NCBI GenBank assembly: GCA_963931925.1
Contig: OZ007572.1
Span: forward strand, 28,137,191 to 28,201,190
Source: Onchidella celtica
Lineage: Eukaryota; Mollusca; Gastropoda; Systellommatophora; Onchidiidae
Reading direction: 5' to 3'
DNA: 64,000 nt
Shown here: positions 5,737 through 24,000 of the stretch, in pieces
Layout: each line of letters starts with the position of its first letter
How positions within the stretch are numbered: the first letter of the stretch is position 1
The notes under the pieces: generated by a model
The model's input: only the letters and a program-made list of their open reading frames with translations
The model's database searches: none
Told to the model about the DNA's origin: nothing
Position numbers and translations under genes: made by a program

Positions 5737-5799
5737 TACATTCATATATATGGCCTTTAGCGTCTTTACAGACGGTCTTAGCAGCTAGAATATTCACTT

Positions 5800-8421
5800 T
5801 CACTTTGTCTGACAGCTTCTCTCGTGGCTTATTCTACCAATGTTTGACCCGAGAGTGCGATGGCAGTGATTGCAGGTCAGTCTTTTGGGTTCACTTTGGC
5901 GAGTGTTTTCATTCCGCCTCTGTCGTTTTGTCAGGTATGTTTCTTTTGCCTTGAAGTCTATTGCGAGCGTGCCACTGCGCAATTTTTGTCTCCATCTGCT
6001 TCGATCATTTGCAAGGTTCTCCCATTCATTGGGGTCGATGTTGAATGCTTTCATCGTGACCTTGCAAGTGTCTTTGAATCGCAGATGTGGCCTACCTCTG
6101 GGTCGGTTGCCAGTAGCAAGTTCCCCGTAGAGAATTTGTCTGGGGATGCGATCATTTTCCATACGGTGGAGATGTCCAAGCCACCGCAGTCTTTTTTTGC
6201 CTAGGAGAGCCTGAGTTGATGGAATGTTGGCTCGGCTCAGAACTTCGATATTTGAGATCCTGTCTTGCCACTTGATCTTGAGAATTTTGCGTAGGCAGCG
6301 CAGGTGGAAGGAGTTGAGGGATCTTTCATGTTTGGAGTAGGTGGTCCATGTCTCTGAGCCATACAGCAGGGTGCTTAGGACGCAAGTTTGGTACACGAGT
6401 ACCTTTGTTTTGATGGTCAGCTTGCTATTGTTCCACACCCTTTTTGAGAGTTTGCCAAAAGCTGTGGCCGCCTTTCCTATTCTGGCATTTATTTCAGTTG
6501 TTATGTCTGTGCTACCACTGATGGTTGAGCCTAGGTAGCAGAATTTTCCCACTTGCTCCAGAGGAGAGCCATTCAGCATGATTGGGTTGGGGTTTCTCAA
6601 GCCTTGTGTCAAAACTACAGTTTTTGAGACACTGATCTTTAGCATGAATTTGTCACAGGCTTTGGCAAGGCTATTGATGAGAGCCTGGAGCGTGGTTTCA
6701 TCGTGGGCCACGATTGCAGCATCATCTGCGAAGAGGAGCTCTTGTAACATAATATGCTCTGTACGAGATTTTGCTTTTAGTCTGGCAACATTAAAAATGG
6801 AGCCGTCCACTCTGGTGTTAATAAGTACTCCACCTGAACATTGACCAAAAGCATTCTTGAGTAGGGCTGCAAAATATATACCAAATAAGGTAGGAGCAAG
6901 AACACATCCCTGCTTCACACCGCTGTTTACAGCAAATGAATTGGATGTGCAGCCCTCAAAGTTGACACATGCCCTCATGTCAGTGTGGAAGGATGCAATA
7001 AGTTTTAGCAATGTTGGTGGACAGCCTATGGATTTAAGGACTGCATACAGGCCAGATCGGCTTACGGTGTCGAAAGCCTTTGTTAGGTCCACAAAGCATG
7101 TTATAAGCGGCCTGTTTTGTTCTTTACATTTTTCTTGGATTTGCCGAAGTGCAAATATCATGTCAATAGTTGATCGTTTGCTTCGAAAGCCACATTGTGT
7201 TTCTGGTAAGACTTTTTCCGCCAGTTGTTGAAGGCGGCAGAGGATGACGCGAGCAAAAGCCTTCCCAGTAATGCTGAGGAGGGATATGCCTCGATAGTTG
7301 TTGCAGTCGCCTTTGTCTCCTTTGTTCTTGTAAAGTGTGACAATTTTGGCGTCTCTCATATCATGTGGTATCACGCCTTCTTTCCAACACTGCAGTAACA
7401 GATTATACAGGTGTGGTAATAGTGGGCCTTTTAGGTCTTTTAATACCTCTGCAGGAATGTTGTCACTTCCTGTGGCTTTTCCAGCAGACAGGTGGTCGAT
7501 TGCATTGGAAAGCTCGACTAAGGAAGGTTCAGCGTCAAGTTCGGCCATTATTGGCAGTTTTTGGAGGTGTTCCTCAAAATCTGGTGGAATATTTTTCTCA
7601 GTTGAATACAACAGAGAGTAATGCTCTACCCACCTATTCAGTTGTTCATTTTTATCTGTGATGGGTTCACCATTTACAGACTTAAGTGGGGCGCTTTTGG
7701 TGATGATTGGCCCAAGAGCTACTTTCATCTGACTAAAGGCGGTTTTCATATCTCCCTTTTCATTTGCCTCTTGTATGCTGTTACACAAGTCTGTCCAGTA
7801 TTTGTTGGCGCAACGTCTTACCTCCAGCTGAAGTTTAGCTTTTGCATTTTTCAAACAAGTTTTTGTACTCTGATTGCAATTTTTGTTATACTCATTGAAA
7901 GCAGATTTCTTTTGCTCAATGAGAGGTAGGAGAATTTCGCTGTTCTGGGCTACCCAGTCGTTGTTTGAAACTTTATGCTGTCCAAAAGACTTGATGGCAC
8001 AGTCATGAATTTTTGAACTGAGAGTGTTCCATGTTTCATCTACCGAGTCACATTGGCTGACATTATCCATGCTTTCAGCAAATAACTTTTCAAATGACTT
8101 TCTATTTGATTCATCTCTGATTGCTGTTACATTGATCTTAGGGATTGAAGGGGCTTTTGATCTGTATATTTTCTTGGCCGAAATTTTGATTTTGCTGACT
8201 ACCAGTGCATGGTCGGTGTCACAGTCAGCACTGTGGAGGGAACGAGTTATTTTTATACAGCCCAAACTCTTCCTCCTTGAGAGAATAAGATCTAATTGAT
8301 GCCAATGGCCAGACCTGGGATGGCGCCATGATGTTCTTTGGCATCTCTTAAGGTCAAAGTACGTGTTTGTAACACATAATGAGTTTACGGAGCATAGCTC
8401 CAGAAGGCGCTGCCCGTTTTA
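5800..8421 (-). CDS. LINE endonuclease (C-terminal part), reverse transcriptase and zinc finger; 5'-truncated
   Basis: This is one open frame of about 874 codons reading from the inner junction at about 8421. It starts inside the APE-type endonuclease (RTSWRHPRSGHWHQLDLI, then CDTDHALVVSKI). A reverse transcriptase follows (VTLYKNKGDKGDCNNYRGIS, QCGFRSKRSTIDMI, CFVDLTKAFDTV, VKQGCVLAPTLFGIYF, and the catalytic LLFADDAAIVAHDE). Next is the LLYGSETW / RLRWLGHLHRM domain, and last a carboxy-terminal CNHCHRTLG...HERSC zinc finger. The first ATG in frame is at 8265, but the frame continues upstream, so that ATG is internal. The frame is open to its stop, so decay is limited, but the first half of the endonuclease is missing and the copy cannot be autonomous. 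The family is RTE-like; the exact clade is not resolved. Confidence 0.85.
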
Positions 8422-8422
8422 T

Positions 8423-8599
8423 AAAGCATGTTATAAGCGGCCTGTTTTGTTCTTTACATTTTTCTTGGATTTGCCGAAGTGCAAATATCATGTCAATAGT
8501 TGATCGTTTGCTTCGAAAGCCACATTGTGTTTCTGGTAAGACTTTTTCCGCCAGTTGTTGAAGGCGGCAGAGGATGACGCGAGCAAAAGCCTTTCCAGT
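8423..8599 (-). repeat. Second copy of LINE RT segment within the insertion
   Basis: This stretch repeats 7093-7269 on the same strand with one mismatch seen (CTTTCC for CTTCCC). It encodes the QCGFRSKRSTIDMI region again, out of order with the main frame. It sits between the truncated endonuclease and the copied intron segment, as expected for a template switch during first-strand synthesis. Confidence 0.8.
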
Positions 8600-8617
8600 G
8601 CTACACACTGCCGACTA

Positions 8618-8816
8618 AATGTACGTTCCTCTAACAACAGTCTAAATGGTGGTTTAGGTGGATGTGGGTTTTCTTTTAAAAACCCATAAGCCAATGAAAC
8701 AAAATAATGTAACTGTTCAACTGATTAAGTTGAGCATTTCATCTCCAAACACCTAAAAAATCACTCAGGCAATAATCTTATGACGTGACGATATAATTGT
8801 TTCTGCATTGATGATT
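8618..8816. repeat. Copy of RPAP3 intron segment (source 9670-9833)
   Basis: GTACGTTCCTCTAACAAC through CAACTGATTAAG, and then GCAATAATCTTATGACGTGA through TGCATTGATGAT, occur in both places in the same orientation with almost no differences. The distal copy has 39 extra bases (about 8733-8771) that the source near exon 9 lacks. The copy stops within a few bases of the source exon 9 splice donor, at the right-hand target-site duplication. Confidence 0.8.
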
Positions 8817-9067
8817 TACATTCATATATATGATTATAAAGAAGGATTTTTTTTTTTCACTCTCTTGAAAATATAAAACCACCTTTTTTTCCCTGATGCC
8901 AGTATTATGATATTTTACTACCTTATAGTATCTTACAGAGATAGTTCTGAATCCCAAATAATAACTATCAGAAATAATTCAGAGAGTAAGAAATGCACAG
9001 TCATAAAATTTTCACTTATTGTGAATTCAGTATAAAATCACATTCACACAATTTTCTGGAAACTTGG

Positions 9068-12000
9068 TCATAAATTATATTTCTTCCTCAATGATGAAAC
9101 ATCACTTGGCGAATATGTGCCACTGCTCTCTAGCTGGTTCATTAGTTTCTGGGCGACTGAAATAGGGAAACAGACATACAACATAAGTTACATTAGATTT
9201 TTCTTTTCCTTTTTTTTTAAAAACATTTTTCTACCTTCGAAGAAAGCCATCATATGAATACCTATAATCATTTATTATTATTTAGCCTCATCATTATGAG
9301 ATCTATCCATGCCATCCACTGTGATGTAGAATAAACAGAAACAAAGATTGGACAAGGAAAATGTGCCAAGACGGAAATTTCAGGTTTAAAAAACATGGAT
9401 ATATTGGAAAATTGTCGCATCTCCATGGATATTCACTTTTATTAAACTCCCCTTTCACAGACCGGCATTTTGATCATAATAGCCAGATATGCATACATTA
9501 TCTCCACGATCATGACATGATTGCTTATGTTTTGGTGTTTTTTGAATTTCAAAGAAACCCGTTCATATCGAATATCATACTGTCTGTTGTTAGGGAAGTA
9601 TAGTATTTCATATAGAAAGCTGTAGCTGAACAGTGAATACAGCATTTTCTCTATTTGGCTTTGTTATTAGTGTACGTTCCTCTAACAACAGTCTAAATGG
9701 TGGTTTAGGTGGATGTGGGTTTTCTTTTAAAAACCCATAAGCCAATGAAACAAAATAATGTAACTGTTCAACTGATTAAGGCAATAATCTTATGACGTGA
9801 CGATATAATTGTTTCTGCATTGATGATGTACTTACTCAGTTTGTCCTTCCCTGTGAGGAACATGGCTGTCATTGAAAATCTCTTCACCCGAGTAAGACTG
9901 TCCAGAATATCATACACATCTATTTCTCCCCTGCAGAGAAAAAAAAACAACATAAATTCAATGAATCTATCAGAATCATTCTCTGTGATAGACAATATCA
10001 CAAATACAGAGCATTTTTTTTTTTTTAATTTCATTATTTTAACTTGAAACTTTAAAGACCTGCCAGTAATTCTTGGTCTTCAAAGAAGTCATAGCATCTC
10101 AGACATGCCGACTAAATGAGAGTTTCAATATGGGATACTTCAACAGTCATGGACATGTGACCTATCGCTATAAAGGCAAACTTAAACTGTCATTTACTCG
10201 TAATTTCTACAGAAAGGAGAACACAGATTGATATGAAAAACTGTACCACAGTTCACTGGTCACAGTATGCATTTCATGTACAGAAGAGTCCATGTAAACC
10301 GAACTTCGGTAATTTGAATTTCTGCTAAACCGAGGTGATTTTGAAATGAGTTTTTTTTTCCTTCTTTATCTCTGTTAAATATTTCCTGCCAATTCAAGTT
10401 TCAAACAGCTCCAATTCTGGTATATCGAACTGATCGTGCGCACTCATCCTCAATGTAACTTCTGGCTTCCAGCCCCGTGGCCGTAACAACCAATTTCCAC
10501 AAACACACTGACACGGGACTGTTCAACAACTCTTTATTTTTAGCAGCAATCGAGGGCGAGGGTAGAGGTGCTAAAAATGATGCAATGGGTAGGCCGCAGA
10601 GCCTTCCTCTTACGTGTCTGTCAGACCAAGCGAGAAACATGTCGCAGAGGGTGGTAGTGGTACGGGTGGGGCCCCTGCATGCAGCGTGATTCTGCCCCAA
10701 TGACCAATTTGATATCAGCCAATAACACGCGTACGTTAGATCATGCTCGCATTATGTCTAGTAAATTTATCGATTGCTGACATAACCACAACATGTACAG
10801 CCAAGACACAGTATACCGTAGAACATAAATTACACAGCAAGCTGGTTTCAGGAGTAATCGATCAACCACCGACCAGATCGCCACGCTGAGAATTATAGTA
10901 GAGCAGTCGCTAGAGTGGAACTCCCAACTGATAGTGAACTTCCTTGACTACGAGAAGGCCTTTGATAGCATCGATAGAGAAACGCTGTGGAGAATATTGA
11001 GACATTATGGAATCCCAGAGAAGATGGTGAATCTTATCAAGAGCATGTACGAGGGGACAAGTTGCAGAGTTGTACACGATGGTGAGCTTACTGACAGCTT
11101 TGATATCAAGACTGGTGTTAGGCAGGGTTGTTTGCTGTCCCCATTTCTGTTTATTCTGGTGATTGATTGGCTTATGAAAGAAACCACCAATGGAGGAAGA
11201 AATGGCATACAATGGACCCCATGGACACAGCTGGACGATCTAGATTTTGCAGATGACTTGGCACTATTGTCGCACACACACGACCAGATGCAAGCAAAGA
11301 CTACAGCTCTAAACAAAATTTCAGAATCTATCGGATTGAGGATACATCCTGCGAAGTCGAAGGTCCTAAAAATTGTTGCACCCCCAAGCGAACAAGTCAA
11401 AGTAGGAGATCAACCACTGGAAGATGTAGAGTCCTTCTGCTATCTTGGTAGTATCATTGACAATAAGGGAGGAACAGAGGCAGAAGTCAAAGCACGAATT
11501 GGAAAGGCACAGGCAGCTTTCACGTCCTTAAGCAAGATTTGGAGAACCAAGGATATATCTCTAAAAACAAAGCTGAGGATATTCAACTCGAACGTGAAGT
11601 CAGTCCTGTTGTATGGATGTGAGACTTGGAATGCGTCCCAGGCCTGCATAAAGAGAATCCAAGTTTTCATCAACAGATGTTTGAGGAAGCTACTTAAGAT
11701 CAGATGGACAGACAAGGTCAGCAATGAAATTGTTTGGAAAAGAACAAGACAGAGCCCAGTCAGAGAGGAAATTGGTAGGAGGCGATGGAGATGGATCGGC
11801 CACACTCTCAGGAGGCCAGGAAACAGCATCACGAAGAAGGTATTGGATTGGAATCCCCAGGGCAAGAGATCAAGAGGAAGGCCGCGCGGAACGTGGAGAA
11901 GAGCCAGAGAAAATGATGTGCAACGAAGCGGAAAGACTTGGAATAATGTAAAGAGGCTGGCCCATGATAGAGAGGGATGGAAAGTGTTTGTTGGTGGCCT

Positions 12001-15000
12001 ATACCCTGATCCAGGGTGAGAAAGGCAATGATGATGATGATAAATTACACACAGTAAAACCACGAGCCTCACAGTGTGTCCACCGTGTTCATATAGAGCT
12101 ATTCTGCTACACACTTAGACAATGCTCGCTAAGCTATACAGCATCACATGACTCACACTGTACGAAGCGTAAAAATTATGGTAATGCTGTGAAGGAACAA
12201 AGATCTCCACCACACGTGGTTCTTCGCATTTCAGTACTGCAAAGAAGCTGTTGCAGTGTTTACACATTCACCACACTACCCTCGATGGCAAGGGGGAATG
12301 AGTACGGCATTGTCACACTAATAATAGTTCGTCCATCAGGTATGATGATGACCTTAACAACACCAGAGGAATAAAGAACAGAAATTGTTGAGAATTTCAA
12401 CACATGGACAGTAAAGAGAACTAAAGGACACAGATGACAGAATGGAAAGACTGTTCTTTCATGACTTATGGCTTCTCATGTGACTGATAAGTCCTATTTT
12501 TGCCCTGCAGACCCTTCCGCATAAATGACAAGAGTGCTCCGTTGGTTCAGTACCACTGGGCCTTTTCTTGCGCCGTTCTCTTTTTTTGATAGCCTGCTGG
12601 ACTCTGTCAGCTTCCCATGCTTTGCTGCCTCTGGTAAGCCTGCTGGACTCTGTCAGCTTCCCATGCTTTGCTGCCTCTGGTAAGGGCCACCCTCCAATTT
12701 GCACGATCAAGCGAGAGCTTTTCCCACTCACTCACATCAATGGCAAAGGCCTTCAGTGATTGCTTGAGAGTGTCTTTGTAACGTCTCTTTGGGGCCCCAA
12801 CATTCCTCGTTCCATTGGAGAGCTCAGAGAAGAAGATTTGCTTAGGGAGTCTGGAGTCGGGCATTCTGACAACATGTCCTGCCCAACGTAGCTGAATTTT
12901 TTTCAGGTGGCAGAAGATGCTCCATTCCTTGGCACGATTGAGGACCTCAGTGTCTGGAATTTTATCCTGCCATTTGATCCTTAGGATCTTTCTAAGGCAG
13001 GCCAGATGAAAGTGATTTAGCTTTCTGGCATGCGATTGGTACACTGTCCAGGTTTCAGCCCCATAGAGTAGGGTGGGAAGGACCACAGCATTGTACACTT
13101 TCAGCTTAGTGTCTGTGCGAATGCCGGCGACATCCCATACTCTCTTTCGAAGCCTGCCAAATGCAGAGCTGGCTTTGCTGATTCTTGAGAGAATTTCAGT
13201 ATCAACACGAGCCGCGGAAGACAGTGTACTGCCAAGATAGGTGAAGTTCTCCGACACCTTCAGAAGACTGTCATGGACTTTGATATTTGGGGTCACAGGA
13301 TACTTGTCGTCTGGAGTAGGCTGATGGAGCACTTCCGTCTTCTTTGTGCTTATTGTGAGGCCAAAGTTGTCACAGGCACTAAAGAACTTATCAACACAGT
13401 TTTGCATGCTATCCTCATCATGTGCCAGAAGTGCACAATCATCAGCAAATAGTAGGTCACAGACTTGAGTACTTTTGGTTTTGGTTTTTGCCTGAAGTCT
13501 CCTGAGGTTGAATAGACTGCCATCAGTTCGGTACTTGATGCTTACCCCTTGAGGAGGAGAGCTAAAGGCTTCTTGTAGCATTGCAGAGAACATGATGCTG
13601 AACAGAGCTGGGGCTAAGACACAACCCTGTTTTACCCAATCTGTGACAGCAAAGGGCTCTGAAACACTGCCGTTGCTTTTGACTGCAGCTTGCATGCCAT
13701 CATGAAACTGGCGCACTATTGTGATGAATTCGGGTGGACACCCAAACTTCACCAAGATTTTCCAGAGGCCTTCACGACACACTGTGTCAAATGCTTTTGT
13801 GAGGTCAACAAATGTGATATACAGCGCTTTATTTTGTTCCATGCATTTTTCCTGAATCTGTCTGGCAGCAAAAATCATATCCGCGTTTCCCCTCTCTTTA
13901 CGAAAGCCACATTGGCTCTCGGGAAGCAAGTCATTTGACGAGAGGTGATCAAGAAGGCGATTCAGAAGCATTCTTGCCAATATTTTGCCAGCAATTGAAA
14001 GTAGAGAGATTCCCCGATGGTTGTCACAGACTTGGCTGTCCCCTTTGTTTTTGTACAGATGGATGATTGAAGCATCTTTGAAGTCCTGTGGCAGTTTCCC
14101 TGCTTTCAACATAAGATTGAACAACTCGGTCAACCTTTCAATAAGCTTTTCTCCACCGAAGGCATACACCTCAGCAGGAATTGAATCCACACCTGGTGAT
14201 TTGTTAAAGGACATCTGATTTGTGGCAGTTCGGGTCTCATTTGCTGTGAATGGCTTGGCAAGAGCTGCATTAATAGGAGTCTGAGGGAGGCGGTCAATGG
14301 ACTCAGTATTTATATTTGATGGCCGATTTAGCACACCTCCGAAATGTTCTGCCCAACGCTGAATTATGGCATTCAATTCAACAATGCGTGTTGAACCATC
14401 TGACGCAAGAAGTGGCGTAGTGCCAGAGCGGGATGGTCCAAACACAGCTCGGAGGCTCTCAAAGAACTTTCTAGTGTTGTTTGTGTCGGCATATTTCTGA
14501 GTTTCTCTTACTCGCTCTTCAAGCCAGTCATTTTTCATTTTCCTCAGCTTCTTCTGGAGTACACCCTTACATGCACGCAGTGCATCAGCTTTTGCTGTGG
14601 AAGAGGGGTCACTGCAGTGAGCTTGGATGAGACTATTTTTTTCTTTGATGAGCACTTTGATTTCATTATCATTATCATTGAACCAGTCCTGGTGCTTGCG
14701 GACAGGAAAACCAACTGTGCTGCTGGCGCAAGAGTGTACAGTCGTATTTAGGTCAGTCCAGCTCTGTTCAATGTTCTCAGGGTCAAAAGTCACGCAATCC
14801 AATTTTGAGGAGAGTTCTGATGAGAGCTCGCTCTGTTTCTCAGCTGAGCAGAGTTTTGAAACATTTAGGCGTTTAGGTGGCGCTTTCCCTTGAGGGCGTC
14901 TATTGCGCCTCAATGTTAGTCTGAGCTTGCAAACAATGAGTCTGTGGTCAGTTCCACACTCGGCACCACACATCGCCTTTGTTACAAGGACATCCTTTCT

Positions 15001-18000
15001 GTCAGTCTTCCTCACAATGACATAGTCTATGAGATGCCAATGCTTTGAGCGGGGATGCATCCATGACGTTCTGTTTCTCACGGGGAGACTAAAATTTGTG
15101 TTGGTAATGAACAGGCCAAATTCAGCGCACAAAGTAAGTAAGCGCAACCCATTGTTATTGCATGAACCAACTCCATGAGGGCCCAAAACATTTGGCCACG
15201 CTGAGATTTCGGAGCCAACCCTAGCATTGAAGTCCCCCAAGAGAATCAGCTTATCAGCTGCCGGGACAGAGCATATGACAGATTCTAGATCAGAATAGAA
15301 ATTGTCTTTGGCTTCATCTGGGTTTGTCATGGTGGGCGCATATGCGCTAATGAGGGTGGCTGACTGGCTTTTCCCAACTGGGATCCTGAGTGTCATTAGC
15401 CTGTCATTTATTTCAATTGGCATGGACTGCAAGTTTCTGACAAGGTCATTTTTAATTGCAAACCCAACACCATGCTGTCTCGGTTCGACTGCACCCTTGC
15501 CTTTCCAGAAGAAGGTGTATCCACCACTGAGCTCTTTGAGTTGGCCACTATCAGGGAGTCTGGTCTCACTGAGTGCCACTATGTCCAGGTTGTACCTGCT
15601 GAGCTCAATGGCAATAAGTGCAGTGCGTCTTTCCGGGTTGTTTGAGTTGTCCTGTAGTGTGCGTATATTCCAGGCTCCTAGCCTGAGTAAGCTGAATTTC
15701 TTTTTGTTTCGACCGCAAAAAGGGATCCCCACTGGTCGCGGTATACCAGTCAGGGTGATGTGAAGTGGGCTTTCTTTAGGGCACCTTTTCTAGCCCCTTC
15801 CTCAGTTGAGGTGAGCAGTGCTATCCTTAAATAAGGCTGCTCAGCTACTGTGGGTGCTGCCTCCCCACGCCTCCACTTCAATCGACGATGAAGCGACCAT
15901 AGCCCACAGCCACCAACGTGTAGGTCTGTGCTAACAGCTTCCAGTCTATCCAAACCTGCTGCCACCGCACTCGCCCATCGCCGTTGGAATTTTGAGAGGA
16001 AAGAAGACGAGACAAAGATGAAAGAAGACGAGGTGAGTGTTAAGACTGGCGCAAAGAATTTGTTTTTAGTGAGAAAGAGCTGCGCAAACATCAGACTCAC
16101 TCTCTCGCCTGGACACAACTTATCCAAGTGGCAAGACAGGGTCGAGACGACTGGAAATGTATCCAGGTGCAGGAGGATGCCAGAGGGACAGTCATATTGC
16201 CTGACCGGCTGCCTGTAGGCTACTCCACAGCCTCGCAGTCCCAACTGACTAGGGTGAAAGACCCAAACCAAAGAACACCAATACTGGTGGATGCTCTGTG
16301 TCACGATATCCAGGCCAGAGTGACGGTATATTGCCATCTGCCCTATCAATCAACCACTGGCCTGCTGCCGCCAGCTTCGAAGCTGCGTCCGGGAAGTTGC
16401 TCAATTCTTCGTCTGTGATTTAGGCAAACAAGCCTATGACCACACCGCTACCGGGGGCCAATATGAAGGACTCAAGTACTGAGGGTCACATTGTGCCCTA
16501 GCATGTGGCCGTTGGGTTAGATGAAACCTCCTCCGCCCTGGCCGTTTGCACCGACAGGTGCACGCCCACTGATACCATGCTAGCGTACCAGTTCATGAAA
16601 CAGGTTGTACTGGATTACATGTTACCAGTAACAGATTTTTCTGACCTGACACTGCGTAATAGTAATTCCACGCCATTGATAGCAAGGTGGGACAACGAAG
16701 TAGGCCTACTGTCTTGCATTTGAACATCAAACACGGGAGAATGTTTTTATCGATTGATGACATCAGACACAATACATGTGGTCAAGATAAAGACAGGGAA
16801 CAGAGTTTGCTGACCAGAACAGTTCACCGAGGCCTAAGCCATTCAATGCTGCTTTTTTGTTTTACTACTACCGTACGGTCACTTGTAAAGAAAAAAATAA
16901 TCAAAAGATCTCATGACTCATACAAGTTCCTATGCATTTTTTTTCTTGTGTGTGTATGGTGGGGAGGGGGGTTCTGCAGTCGAACTGTAATCCAATTCCC
17001 AACGACTTCAAATGATGCAGGCTCCGCTGTATATAAACTAGTGTCATAACGTGCATACCGCTACCTTGGACTTTACTGAGGGGGACAATTCTCCCCTATG
17101 ACAATGGTTTACTATGGAGTCAAAAAAAAAAATGAAATGCCTGAGAAACTTCATAACTAACCCATTATAAATGATCAACTGAATAACTTACTACCTGGCA
17201 GCACTTATTAATAAAAATAACCCACCTATCTGAAAACTCTGCCACCAATTTCAAAACGGCAACTAGAATATCAGCATCCAGACACTGACCAAAGAGTTTA
17301 GGGTACTGAGCTGGTGGAATGGCCTGCAAATAAAGAAAAACACATTTCTGTAGGTGTTTCTTTTTTATCAGAAAATGTTGAGAGCCTACTCCAACACTCA
17401 AACATAATTACATAGACACTGTCATTAAAATGAAATTTGTAATAAGTTTATGATTCCCCATGTTAGAAATTACGCGTTTAAGATTCATCATGTAATGTCA
17501 ATGGGTATTTGCCATATTGTTGTAAGCAATATTTTGCCGATTTTGAGGTTTTGTTATGAAAGTGATTCTCTCACTTCTTCTTTCACTATGTATACTATAA
17601 GTCCCATTCCAACGGGTTCAAAACATTTTGAGATATGTGTTTGTGATGTAATGTTTTATATGTTTTAACCCTTCTGCTGACCAAATTTCAGTCCTCAGTT
17701 ACTTGAAATGTCACAAATGCACATACAACAATATGGCAAATACCCGGCAATATTTGTATTTACAAAGCATTCACATACAATTAAATGTGTACTGCCCACG
17801 TTCAAGTGGAAGTGTCAATTGTCAAATCAAGAATTAGTTTTAGAAGGTGACAAAAATGAAAAATTAAGGATATTTCTAATTTCTGAATCAAGATGTGCCT
17901 ATGTTTGCAAGAACAGTTTCAATGAACACTAACAAATCTGGAAATGTCACCAGCATTAAGGAGCAAAGACAACACATGAAGCAACAAAACAAAAACAAAA

Positions 18001-21000
18001 AATTTAAAATAGCCCATGTCAAACAAAATAAAAATAAAATCAATAACCCCAGTAAAAAGACCTGACCAACCAAAAGGTACAAACCTTGAAATACTGATAA
18101 AATGAATCTTGTTTGTTTTTTAACAGTTTAAAATCTGCCTGAAACTGGAAGGATGTTTGGGGTACACAAAAGCCATCGCCTGATCCATCACCATTGTGCT
18201 TTGCTGAATTCTGAACTGCTTCACCATTTTGTTTCTTGTGATTTTCTTTTAAACCACTACTACCGGTTTCTCTGGGAGCACAAGACTGTTTGTTCGGCAC
18301 AGAAGAGGGCTTTTCTGAAGATTTCACACTCTTTGCTTTTGGCTGAGCTGACACTGCAGAAGAGTTTTCTAAATGCTGAATTTCTGGTTTGTGGTTGGGT
18401 GCTCCATTAGCAATGTTTATTGCTGATCCAGGGTCCTTGGCAGAGCTCTGTCTTGTTTCCCTACTGGAAATTTCAGAAATCGTTGGTGAAATCTGTGTTC
18501 CTTGAGGCAATACTGGCATGGTTTCAGTCAATGGTTGTGCAACAGATGCTGATGATGGATCTGATTTAAATAATCTGTCAAACTTCTCTCCTTCCTTGGC
18601 TGTGATTTTCTTGGCAACATCGCTCTGTTCCAGATTGGCTGGTTGCAGGCGACCACTTAACTCAATGCCAATTTCTTCAATAGGGATGCGCCGCAGAGGA
18701 GCCTAAAACAGAATCATGAAATTATAAGGTTACAATACTAGTAAGTATGAAGGCAGTAATATATACTCTTAAACCTTTTTGTCTTTAACTTTCACAGATT
18801 CATATTCAAATATGACACTGTGACAAAAACAAACAGATATTTTTAAAAAATGCATTTTAAAGGATTATCAAGGACTCTTGAAACTTGGCTGATAATTAGG
18901 GAAAATAATCTGAGAAAAGCACAAGCTTTGAGCATGCCTAAAGAAAAAAAAATTTGGAATACAGAACAAAGATTCTGTATTCATATATATGCGATTAAAG
19001 TTGACAGCAAACATTTTCATAACTCTGGAATATCAGTGCTGTAAAACCACATACATATATGTTTATAGACGATGGACAGATTTGCAGGTTAACCCTACCC
19101 ATGTCCTGGTGATGAAACTTAAGTTGGGGGCTAAGACATAGCAATTCTGAAAAACTATTTTTGTCTCAAAAAAGTTTACCTTTGATCTCTCTTCCAGTGG
19201 CTTGTAAATAGGTTTTACTATTCCCTTTCCTTCCTCTGTAAAACTGGATGTCACAGGTCCTTCTTTCTCCCTCTCGATTTCCTGACAACAAGATAATATT
19301 CACAACATAATTCACTATAAAAACTGAGCTGGCTAAAGATTCTAAAAGAACAATGAAATGTAAATATGCATTGCAAGTATATGTTAACTTAAAGTGTCAG
19401 CCACCTTCAACTGTTTGTTTCTATGACCATTATTAAGAAATTTCCCTGATTCCTACTACCCAAAAGAGTAAGCTACCGTGTGTCAGGTTGTTTTATCATG
19501 ATTCATCATCCTCAAATATTTTTTCAACAAATGTTCATGTGATGTTTGTAAAACTATGTTCAAATATATTTTTGCAAATTCTATACACAAACAAGGCAAC
19601 CTTGATAATCATTTTGAATAATAATGACCATAATTACAACACTTGGTTAAGGCTACCCACAAATGTTTACAAAATTAGAATTCTGTTAAGGAAGGAAATA
19701 TAACCAGGTGGTTCAATCATACCACCAAGCATAGAAAAAGTAAATGCATTCTTTATGTTACACTGTTTTCTATACATATATAACAAATAAAAAAAATATG
19801 GACATTCTTTGCCATGTCTAAACTTTCAGGACTAAGTAATGTTGTTGCTAAAAGCCATGGGTGGGGAAATGATGCAAGGGTCTACTTCCCTGATCAAATT
19901 CTACATCCCCACACCTCCGCTTATGATGTGGCTATGGGAAACTGGCATGGTCCCAAAATGCTCAAAATTTCATAATTCATCTATCTGCAGTATTTATAAA
20001 ATCCTTAAGTTCTTATCATACATAAAATATATTACTGTGAAGATGCACACTTGATTTTTTTTCATTTTTAAAGAGTGAACTAGAAAAATTTTCTGAGTCA
20101 CATTAACCCTTTCACTGCTCCATGGTTTCTCATGCCATAAGCTGAAACGCACACTCTCACTATTAATTTTGGACATACATCACAGCGCCCATGCACTATC
20201 AAATTTAAGACATATGGTGTATGTCCACAGTGCAGTGAAGGCATGAATATCAAGCTCTGTTTCATCCACACTGAGGCTTATAGTACTAGTATCTTGTTTA
20301 TGTGCATGAAGCCCTAGCATATGCAATTAAAATCATGTAATTATGGTATTTTCTTATAACTTTCTAGATTTGAACTTGGTCCTCTCTTTCGGTGGTTGCC
20401 ATTTATCTATATGGGACTGAAATACAAGAATTACATTTGGAAATCAGCCTAAGGACATTATTCAATAATAATATGAAACCCTTTATGCTTCTGACAGCAA
20501 ATTGAGTCATAAAATCAGACCTTCTGTAATCTCTCCAATTCTGTCTTTGCTTGTTTATTAGATGGTTCCAGGTCTAGGACTCTATTGTAATCAGCAATTG
20601 CCTCCTCCAATTTTTTCATTCCTGACCTGGCCGTGGCCCGCCTGAGATATGCTTTGATATACAAGGGGTCCAAGGAAACAGAAGTGGTACAATCCAGCTC
20701 AGCTGCTCCAAATCTGAAAAAGAAAAATTACAAAATGAGGCATGTGATCCCCTAATACGTCCATCTTAACGTTCTTCTGTTTTCACTTTAGACATTTTCA
20801 TTTCTTTTGTATTTTTCAGAACAATTAGGCTATTTCAAACATGATGCTTAGGCCTCTATAGGGCAAACCAACAAGTTCAGACCTTAAAATCACACATCTA
20901 GGTCAAGCACTCTAAGTGACTGAAACATTGCGCCAGAAACTGAGAAAATAACGACTGTAAAGTGATATTTGAGACAGAATGTATTACGTGACACATTGGA

Positions 21001-24000
21001 ATACTGATGAATACAGTAAGAAATGTCAAATGGAAACAACATTTTCCGATGCCACATTTTCTTAAACTGTCAAAATCAGCGTGTGAAATAAATCAATAAC
21101 TCGCTGATTAACAGTTTAATTACACTTTCAAATCCAATGATGATTTCACCCTCAAAATTTGGGAGATGGATATATTCTGTATCAAATAAACACAAAAACG
21201 GGCTAAAATGATGAAAATTAATTGATAAACAGTTACTGACTTCTGTTGTTTCAGTAAGGCCATAGCTCTGTTAGCGGGAAGAATAGCATTTGTTGCATCA
21301 AATTCCATGCCTTTAGTGTAAGCTTCGACAGCTTTTTCAAGATCTCCTTTCTTCAGGAATTCATTTCCCTGGAAATAAAATAACGCAGTTGACCCAATTA
21401 TCTCTGAATTAATTCAGACTGCATAGCAGCTCAAAAACAAATACAATTTAATATTTGAGACATGATAAGGTGAGATATTTATAAATATAAATTCACGTTG
21501 CATAGAATGGTACATTCTTGCAAGAGATGATTGATGTACATTTCAAGTTCAGAAACTGGATTCTGAAAAACTCATATGTGAAACACTGACAGTGTAACCT
21601 TGCTGAAGGAAACTGTGTGGTGAAACATTCTGGATAAAAGACATTGTGTGGTGAAACACCCTGGACAAAAGGACATTATGTGGTGAAACATCCTGGATAA
21701 AAGGATATTGTGTGGTGAAATATTCTGGATAAAAGTACACTGTGTGGCAGAACATTCTGGATAAAGAACATTGAATGATGAAGCACTGTTATCTGCACAG
21801 GACATTTACCTTGTCTTTTTCCAAACCAGCCAGGTGCTTCTTTCGTTCCATCTCCCATTCTTCATCGGTTTCATACTCAGATGAAGATGTTTTATCACCC
21901 TTTTCCTCTGTCTCAATTTCTTCTAGTGCCTTGTCCTGAAATGGATGTACATCATGCTAACAGATACAATAACTATTCCAAAATGAATAGAGAATGCTTG
22001 TTTTCAATGATTAAATAATTTTTTTTTACTCAACTGTAACTACCGATATTAACCTTTTCACATCACCCCACATCTGTTGGGTGCAGGCCGTTTTGCAACC
22101 CATGGATACACTGGTCACCGGCAAGGTGCGGCTACTCACACACCAAAAAGCAGCACGTCGCCTCAATTGAGATAACACACGGTTTCATAGCACATTCTGT
22201 TTTTGTTTTTTTTTGCGTTTGTAAACATACAAATGTCATTATTTTGCTCCGAGGAAGCTTTCCAATGATACCAAATATAAAACTAGCTTTACTGGAAAAA
22301 TTTATATGAATTTTCAAAAACACATCCAAAATAGTGCATTCACAGGTAACAGCCACTGTAAAGAAGGAACATACAGTGGGAATGCGAGAGCCAAAGTCCC
22401 CACAATGCAAAATGTAATATAGAAGTAGTTGATAAGGCTTCAGATAGTAAATCTGCCCTACCTAGGGCTTGAATGATCAGAAAGTGTTATCAATAAAAGC
22501 CTACAATGATCTGCAACAATATACAATGTATGATGACTAAATCTTTTTCAGTAACTTAAAATAGTCTATAATCCTGCACAAAAAAAACAAAAAAAACAGC
22601 TACAGTGGCCATCATGTTTAACAACACTGCTAATAACGAGACCTTGCTGACAGCGAGAACATTTTAAATCCCCTTATTTTTGCTGCTTTATGGGCTATAT
22701 AATGAAATACTCAAATAACAGCAATCGACAATCAAAACACCTGCTATAGCGAGAGAATTAACTTAGAGTGTGTAGTACAGCATATTGTTGGGGTGGGCGC
22801 AGAACAACGTGTTGGGATCAAACAATAACAACATGTATTGTTCTTTGTTTATTACTACATGCCCACCATGGCTGTCTTGCGAGCTGTGATCCCAGCTGGC
22901 CATCTCTCGCTTAGGCCTAGTATGCTCTTTCTCCCTACTGACCATGTGCTGTGACAGCACACTACATGCAGTCAGTTCAAAGTGATGACTCATCACTCAC
23001 TGAGGCAAACTGTTGGGGTGGCCATGTAGGCCACAACCGTGTAGTTTCGTCAGACACGTGCACCGTCTAGTCACTACCTGTGATGTGCGATAATTACAAC
23101 ACTGTAGCACGATCATTGATCGTCACTAATCGCCGCCTGAAGCATGCTTTGTCTGCACTGGGCTTACTTGACCAGGTGCTTGCACTACCCGCATGAATGT
23201 GTCACAATCACTTGGCCAGGCTGTTCTCATTTTTTTAATGATGCAGCATGGGAAACCACCAGAACAAACATACTCAAGGTGGGACAAGGTGGTCTAGAGG
23301 CAAGGTGCTCGGCTCTCATGCCAAGGGTCCCGGGTTCTAAACCCGGGCAGTGCAGGCATGTTGGAAATTGGGATTTTTCACATATTTTCAAGTCCCTGAT
23401 CCTATTGGGGGGGGGGGGGGGGTAGGATCAAGTACCAAGTCTTCTCGGATAAGGACGAAAAATTCGGAGGGCCCGTGTGCACGTTGCGCACGTTAAAGAT
23501 ACCTTGGCAGTTAGAAATCGTAAAGAGCAGGCCGAACAGGCCGCTGCCCGGGCAAAATTGAAATTAATAGATCTATTAAAATTTATCCATATCATCCCCC
23601 CCTCCCAACCAGCAACAACAAAATTTATTATTCATTATTAAATATATATTATTATTAATAAATATTCAAATATTATTTGAGTTGTGAGTTGTGAACTGTT
23701 GTTGTGAGTTGTGGACTGCGCCTAACAGGCTGCGTTACAATTATCCTCTGAGACAGAGAGAGAGGTAGAGAGAGAGAGAGTGGGCGAGACAGGGAGAGAG
23801 AAAGAAGCAGTGTAGTGTGTTGAGCGCTTCGCAGGTGCTCCATTCTGCTCTGTGGTTGACATGTTGCTTCTGTAAAGCGCACAGAGCATTTTAAATGGAT
23901 ATGTGCTACATAAATGCCATCCATTATTACTCTTCTGTTTCTAACTTTTGCATCTGACTCTCTCGTAATTTGATTAAAACAGAGCTACCGTCAGCAAAAA

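Follow-up and report, generated by a model that had tools for sequence, protein, structure and literature searches.

Between the truncated 5′ end of an apparently young LINE and its target site, downstream of the inferred RPAP3 stop codon, lie a second piece of the same LINE and about 220 nt of host-derived sequence, the latter in three patches whose donors are each no more than 3.3 kb away. The reading favoured here, which is given a probability of roughly 0.65, is that the LINE may have entered by target-primed reverse transcription, that synthesis would then have passed from LINE template to LINE template, and that the last three copies would have been made from the DNA flanking the target. 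The insertion belongs to an already known kind, with unusually clear joints. It would constitute a recent, nearly undamaged record of the closure of a LINE 5′ end, in which a LINE-LINE switch is followed by repeated copying of the neighbourhood. The window refers throughout to the whole 64-kb stretch of DNA that was analysed.

Structure of the insertion

The letters themselves show which pieces are present, in what order and on which strand, where they join, and the target-site duplication around them. An exact 16-mer, TACATTCATATATATG, stands at 5737-5752 beside the LINE 3′ end and again at 8817-8832 on the LINE 5′ side, and is found nowhere else within the window. The 1.14-Gb assembly (43 contigs) holds six exact copies, two of them those that flank the insert, compared with one copy of a reversed-pattern control. 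The perfect duplication enclosing fused pieces that was described in the earlier note is real, but its true length may be less than 16 bp, since the left flanks of sibling LINE copies show a CATATATA-like, AT-rich tail and some bases of 5737-5752 may therefore be LINE tail.

Inside the duplication, the first and longest piece is the LINE itself (5753-8420, minus strand), which is 5′-truncated and retains an open reverse transcriptase (RT) reading frame. It is joined by 2 nt (AT, 8421-8422), for which no template was found, to a second LINE piece (8423-8599, minus strand) that duplicates 7093-7269. Three host patches follow, all matching the plus strand: patch 1, TGCTACACACT, at 8599-8609, which matches 12105-12115 and shares 1 nt with each of its neighbours; patch 2, TGCCGACTAAATG, at 8609-8621, which matches 10106-10118 and overlaps patch 3 by 2 nt; and patch 3 at 8620-8815, comprising 196 bp from the last RPAP3 intron, 39 bp of which are absent in the donor. 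The host block adjoins the duplication except for a single extra T at 8816, where the donor has a G followed by a TAC that is common to donor and target. LINE sense and RPAP3 both lie on the minus strand and all pieces of the insert are in the sense of RPAP3 transcription, as had been claimed.

Genome comparison of 5753-8420 gave 39 scored matches besides the window, each listed as 100% over 2,668 bp, a lower bound on LINE copy number because 40 of 184 first-look candidates were scored. When 29 sibling loci were compared with the window LINE, 4-7 differences were counted per 2,668 sites; against the sibling majority the window LINE differs at 4 of 2,668 sites, one of which is a common polymorphism. 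To judge from this near-identity, the family appears to be young. Siblings extend up to ~1,279 bp past the position of 8420, which implies a full-length LINE of ~3.95 kb and a window copy without ~1.28 kb at its 5′ end; 19 of the 29 siblings are full length and 10 are truncated. The window copy has the 3′ terminus usual in the family, in agreement with the earlier description of a LINE 3′ part. An open frame of 1,071 aa in one sibling (L008) includes Exo_endo_phos and RVT_1 domains, and RT is the only domain that Pfam finds in the window copy.

The second LINE piece is identical to 7093-7269 at 176 of 177 positions, which bears out its description as a second RT segment of the same LINE. The sole difference is at 7264, where the second piece has the base found in all 29 siblings and the main copy has the odd base. 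Variants of the main copy also occur at other loci: 7264C within an exact 45-mer occurs at four loci including the window, 6850A within an exact 34-mer at two including the window, and 5808T within an exact 60-mer at 12. Only the window is common to the three sets of listed loci, a pattern that fits one or two template RNAs.

An arrangement like that of 8423-8816 might already have been a feature of the LINE family, as the earlier note had proposed to check. That explanation was rejected, as 29 of 29 siblings remain plain LINE past 8421 and a 28-base pattern over the 8420/8423 LINE-LINE junction occurs once in the whole genome. Among the 40 of 906 candidates that were scored for the host block, no second match crosses the LINE-to-host joint. 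These observations, together with the contact between duplication and host block and a LINE-LINE jump in one of the 29 siblings, argue for one target-primed event with successive template switches, a well-supported reading of the sequence as it stands.

Donors of the host patches in RPAP3

The part of RPAP3 nearest the insertion is defined by two coding exons on the minus strand. The penultimate exon (9836-9930) encodes RPAP3_C (Pfam E 1.2e-6), and the last exon, running to the stop, was inferred at 9068-9156 from an open frame, a splice site and phase. When the latter was compared with the tail of human RPAP3 (an approximate query), 0 of 5,000 shuffles reached its score. On its own 9068-9156 gave no Pfam match, and the last two exons joined gave E 2.9e-6 over the penultimate part only, compared with 1.2e-6 for the penultimate frame alone. 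In the PDB, RPAP3 was matched only weakly (E 0.17). Approximate RPAP3 probes gave TPR matches at 20521-20715 and 21240-21371 and C-terminal matches at 17234-17365, 18085-18159 and 9840-9917, and the gene extends past 21 kb in the window. The insertion follows the inferred stop codon (9068-9070) at a distance of 235 bp, which would place it in or just past the RPAP3 3′ untranslated region; of eight poly-A motifs, AGTAAA alone occurs between stop and insertion, at 8914. With its donor in the inferred last intron and the insertion past the stop, patch 3 was not copied within one and the same intron. Two further LINE sequences occupy the penultimate RPAP3 intron: a LINE at 12607-15789 (minus strand) whose open frame of 1,060 aa encodes endonuclease and RT, and, on the opposite strand at 10829-12019 (plus strand), a piece of RT from a different LINE that also matches DUF6451.

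The donor of patch 3 is 9671-9827 (plus strand), with 8 nt left between its end and the 5′ splice site GTAAGTAC. Positions 8620-8729 equal 9671-9780 and 8767-8815 equal 9779-9827, both at 100%, so that 157 of 157 donor bases are matched. The block in the insert is 196 bp long and the donor 157 bp, the extra 39 bp having a 2-bp AG repeat at its ends. The donor seems to have lost these 39 bp, because they are part of a dispersed repeat family; the discrepancy would then reflect a later loss from the donor intron, or the copying of a different allele. The earlier claim of about 200 bp copied from an RPAP3 intron holds as to the donor match, but the copy begins at 8620 and not at 8618 and is preceded by two further flank patches.

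About 180 of the 196 bp of patch 3 lie inside this old dispersed repeat, a ~350-bp family that spans about 9500-9812 at the donor, and only the last ~5-15 copied bases fall outside the alignments to the 28 repeat loci that were read. Of 906 first-look candidates 40 were scored, and the 38 besides insert and donor are 74-90% identical; judged from these matches, the family probably has hundreds of copies. The best identity in the 28 loci read was 93% over 90 bp, or 84% over 167 bp. Identity of 100% at RPAP3 against at most 93% over 90 bp elsewhere indicates that the RPAP3 copy is the donor, and, along with the few unique bases, led to the rejection of an ordinary dispersed-repeat copy as the source of the host block.

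The 23-nt joint between the second LINE piece and patch 3 (8599-8621) is wholly covered by two exact matches to the plus strand of the right flank, and by none from the other three combinations of flank and strand. The joint's 11-mer has one further occurrence in the window, at 12105, and its 13-mer one further, at 10106, both on the plus strand; the likely donors of patch 1 (12105-12115) and patch 2 (10106-10118) both lie in the penultimate RPAP3 intron. Not one of 20,000 shuffled 23-mers could be covered by two exact end pieces of the 4-kb right flank. Random 23-mers from the window were covered in 316 of 20,000 cases by the right-flank plus-strand set and in two by the left-flank minus-strand set, probably on account of repeats held in common, as 71 of 5,000 random 24-mers match whole. 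For single matches, 5 of 5,000 shuffles gave one of at least 13 nt, and the right flank contains 116 of 5,000 random 11-mers, so that more confidence attaches to the 13-nt patch than to the 11-nt one. Taken together, the two short patches are convincing on these counts.

The donors of patches 3, 2 and 1 lie 838, 1,273 and 3,272 bp from the duplication, on the same flank and the plus strand. Overlaps of 1, 1 and 2 nt link the patches, and the last join has 3 nt (TAC) of microhomology only if one mismatched base is allowed. The earlier note had suggested looking for microhomology near 8421 and near 8600-8618; around 8599-8621 there are these overlaps of 1-2 nt, and at 8421-8422 there is the AT.

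Template of the host patches

The reverse-transcription, switching and repair steps proposed for this arrangement can be set out in order. Target-primed reverse transcription would have placed the LINE 235 bp beyond the inferred RPAP3 stop, with synthesis running from the LINE 3′ end to 8420 and then switching to LINE RNA again (7093-7269). The free cDNA end would next have been treated as a broken end, and pairing of one or two bases with a right-flank strand that had become exposed would have allowed it to be extended by 11, 13 and 196 nt at sites 3.3, 1.3 and 0.8 kb off before being joined to the target end. Either a repair polymerase, acting in synthesis-dependent repair or in end joining of the annealing type, or the LINE's own enzyme could have copied the flanking DNA; the available text of PMC2666801 credits such extra nucleotides to template jumps of the LINE machinery, on the basis of data unpublished there. 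The 39 bp would have left the donor intron later, or the copied allele would have differed.

This single event can be set against a sequence of two, in which the 5′ end of an ordinary truncated LINE insertion was later broken and then mended by drawing on LINE and flank sequence. PMC2671141 describes proximal duplications of the repair-mediated type within older transposons, and the single 7264 difference between the LINE pieces gives no dating. The later break would, however, have had to hit the edge of the duplication while sparing all 16 bases, and a complete donor match (157/157) beside a LINE that differs from the sibling majority at 4/2,668 sites leaves little time between two events, so that this history appears quite improbable. 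Still further down the scale is an assembly artefact, or an older tandem duplication that flanks a LINE by chance: the structure is known from one assembly, but the clean duplication, the usual LINE 3′ terminus and the flank-matching filler are unexpected of a misassembly, and this explanation is given hardly any weight.

The identity of the last template is a separate matter, as the host piece is sense-strand intron sequence and an RNA template and the flanking DNA yield identical letters. The earlier note had proposed that the LINE reverse transcriptase jumped from LINE RNA to LINE RNA to nascent, unspliced RPAP3 pre-mRNA at the target. Its single target-primed event with successive switches has been retained here, and nascent pre-mRNA as the last template is now regarded as unlikely. 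In favour of it, all pieces are in RPAP3 sense and every donor precedes the insertion in the transcript, in the part that would be present as nascent RNA, although this orientation is equally expected from flanking DNA. The last donor halts 8 nt before a 5′ splice site, which counts to some extent against a DNA template, although the position may be due to chance. A splicing factor bound near a 5′ splice site could stop a reverse transcriptase. The feature of an RNA-RNA template-switch chimera, LINE-sense pieces fused inside one duplication, is present, and tripartite RNA chimeras have been published, one of them with a 14-bp duplication (PMC2104539, as far as the available text shows). Against pre-mRNA, both the last and the penultimate introns would have to be unspliced, with three switches within 3.3 kb, two of which gave 11 and 13 nt. 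Moreover, the published sense mRNA/LINE-1 chimeras described in the available portion of PMC13174262 are first exons, many with splice-site joints, with no pieces of target-gene introns. Among the titles listed from a mostly non-subscription literature, none concerned LINE template switching to the nascent pre-mRNA of the target gene. If pre-mRNA was the template and copying stopped next to the 5′ splice site, a transcribed target would leave its own introns inside new insertions.

A DNA template is favoured over RNA because no patch comes from more than 3.3 kb beyond the break, although the gene extends past 21 kb in the window, because two of them are only 11 and 13 nt long with overlaps of 1-2 nt, and because there is published precedent. 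All donors come from the flank that had to receive the cDNA end, and from the strand that this end would copy after annealing to flanking DNA. Several points weigh on the other side. Origin in the right flank, like RPAP3 sense, is equally expected from nascent pre-mRNA; copying as far as 3.3 kb into the flank would call for strand invasion or for a strand exposed over a long distance, although the duplication has remained whole; and the 11-nt patch is weak singly, given how often random 11-mers are present in the flank.

Insert junctions of the zebrafish LINE ZfL2 are reportedly the subject of work by Kajikawa in 2012. For zebrafish LINE inserts, the available parts of PMC4245944 and PMC4760211 give a large share of 5′ extra nucleotides as flank-derived, and the ZfL2 inserts resemble the present one in 5′-junction extra sequence that matches flank and/or LINE DNA and in short duplications; the difference is that here three patches, the most distant from 3.3 kb away, make up ~220 nt of host-derived sequence. 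A second comparison is provided by human duplicons, for which PMC2671141, in the portion available, reports a donor within 5 kb in 824 of 1,136, a mean length of 162 bp for proximal cases, fillers of 1-68 nt and breakpoint microhomology of 2-9 nt in repair-mediated duplications. The likeness extends to donors less than 5 kb away (all three host donors here lie within ~5 kb), a length near the 162-bp mean, several donors per acceptor and a short filler, the 11- and 13-nt patches and one extra T beside the duplicated block falling within the published range. Unlike those duplications, the present one has the open 5′ end of an inserted LINE as its break, and two of the three overlaps are 1 nt, below the reported 2-9 nt, which counts against copying from DNA.

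RNA chimeras are more distant relatives. The MGL/Mg-SINE/WEIRD insertions of Magnaporthe, as presented in the available text of PMC2104539, likewise have several fused pieces in one short duplication with a LINE at the 3′ end, but their pieces are separate expressed RNAs, whereas the present insert contains the same LINE twice plus intron sequence from beside the target. Mammalian chimeric LINE-1 insertions, from what is available of PMC13174262, share the fusion of foreign sequence to a LINE and the presence of a duplication, but carry sense mRNA where the present insert carries intron copies of the target gene.

5′ junctions of sibling copies

The existence of many near-identical young copies would make the choice between RNA and DNA copying answerable, through junctions compared across genic and intergenic, sense and antisense sites. 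The junctions of the 29 siblings were compared as controls, most of them with 221 bp of right flank only. Within that flank no sibling has a long flank-derived piece like patch 3, an absence that weighs against the flanking-DNA reading, as does the lack of a duplication of at least 7 nt near the LINE 5′ end in 8 of the 29 (L009, L018, L019, L026, L029, L032, L033 and L036). In 20 of the 29 such a duplication begins no more than 20 nt from the LINE 5′ end, with those of L011, L022 and L031 sitting in simple repeats. The target-site duplication of L010 is 102 bp long, far above the other siblings read.

Longer right flanks of L009, L019, L021 and L032 contained no long local copy; the hits there were short, for example one of 16 nt (inverted, left flank) and one of 14 nt (right flank) in L009, ~190-260 nt from the junction. 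For L018, L029, L033 and L036 the comparison was limited to the flanks within their own loci. On the right, L033 is flanked by a different dispersed repeat (91-92% identity, inverted end arms), and the LINE 5′ end adjoins base 2 of that repeat (L033:5448-5668). A 50-nt inverted match (86%) links the two flanks of L018, 142 nt from the junction.

Filler was present at several junctions. L021 has a filler of 76 nt (L021:5448-5523), 14 nt of it LINE-like, before a 10-nt duplication, and a genome search with this filler returned only itself. The filler of L024 is 10 nt, its first 7 nt repeating the LINE 5′ end, and that of L016 is 14 nt, its first 11 nt being a copy of the locus's own duplication. 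In L026, a full-length LINE runs into 47 bp of internal LINE sequence, followed by a 5-nt match to the left flank, and this sibling is an independent LINE-to-LINE template switch. L026 and L016 thus indicate that LINE-to-LINE jumps and copying of the target recur in this LINE family.
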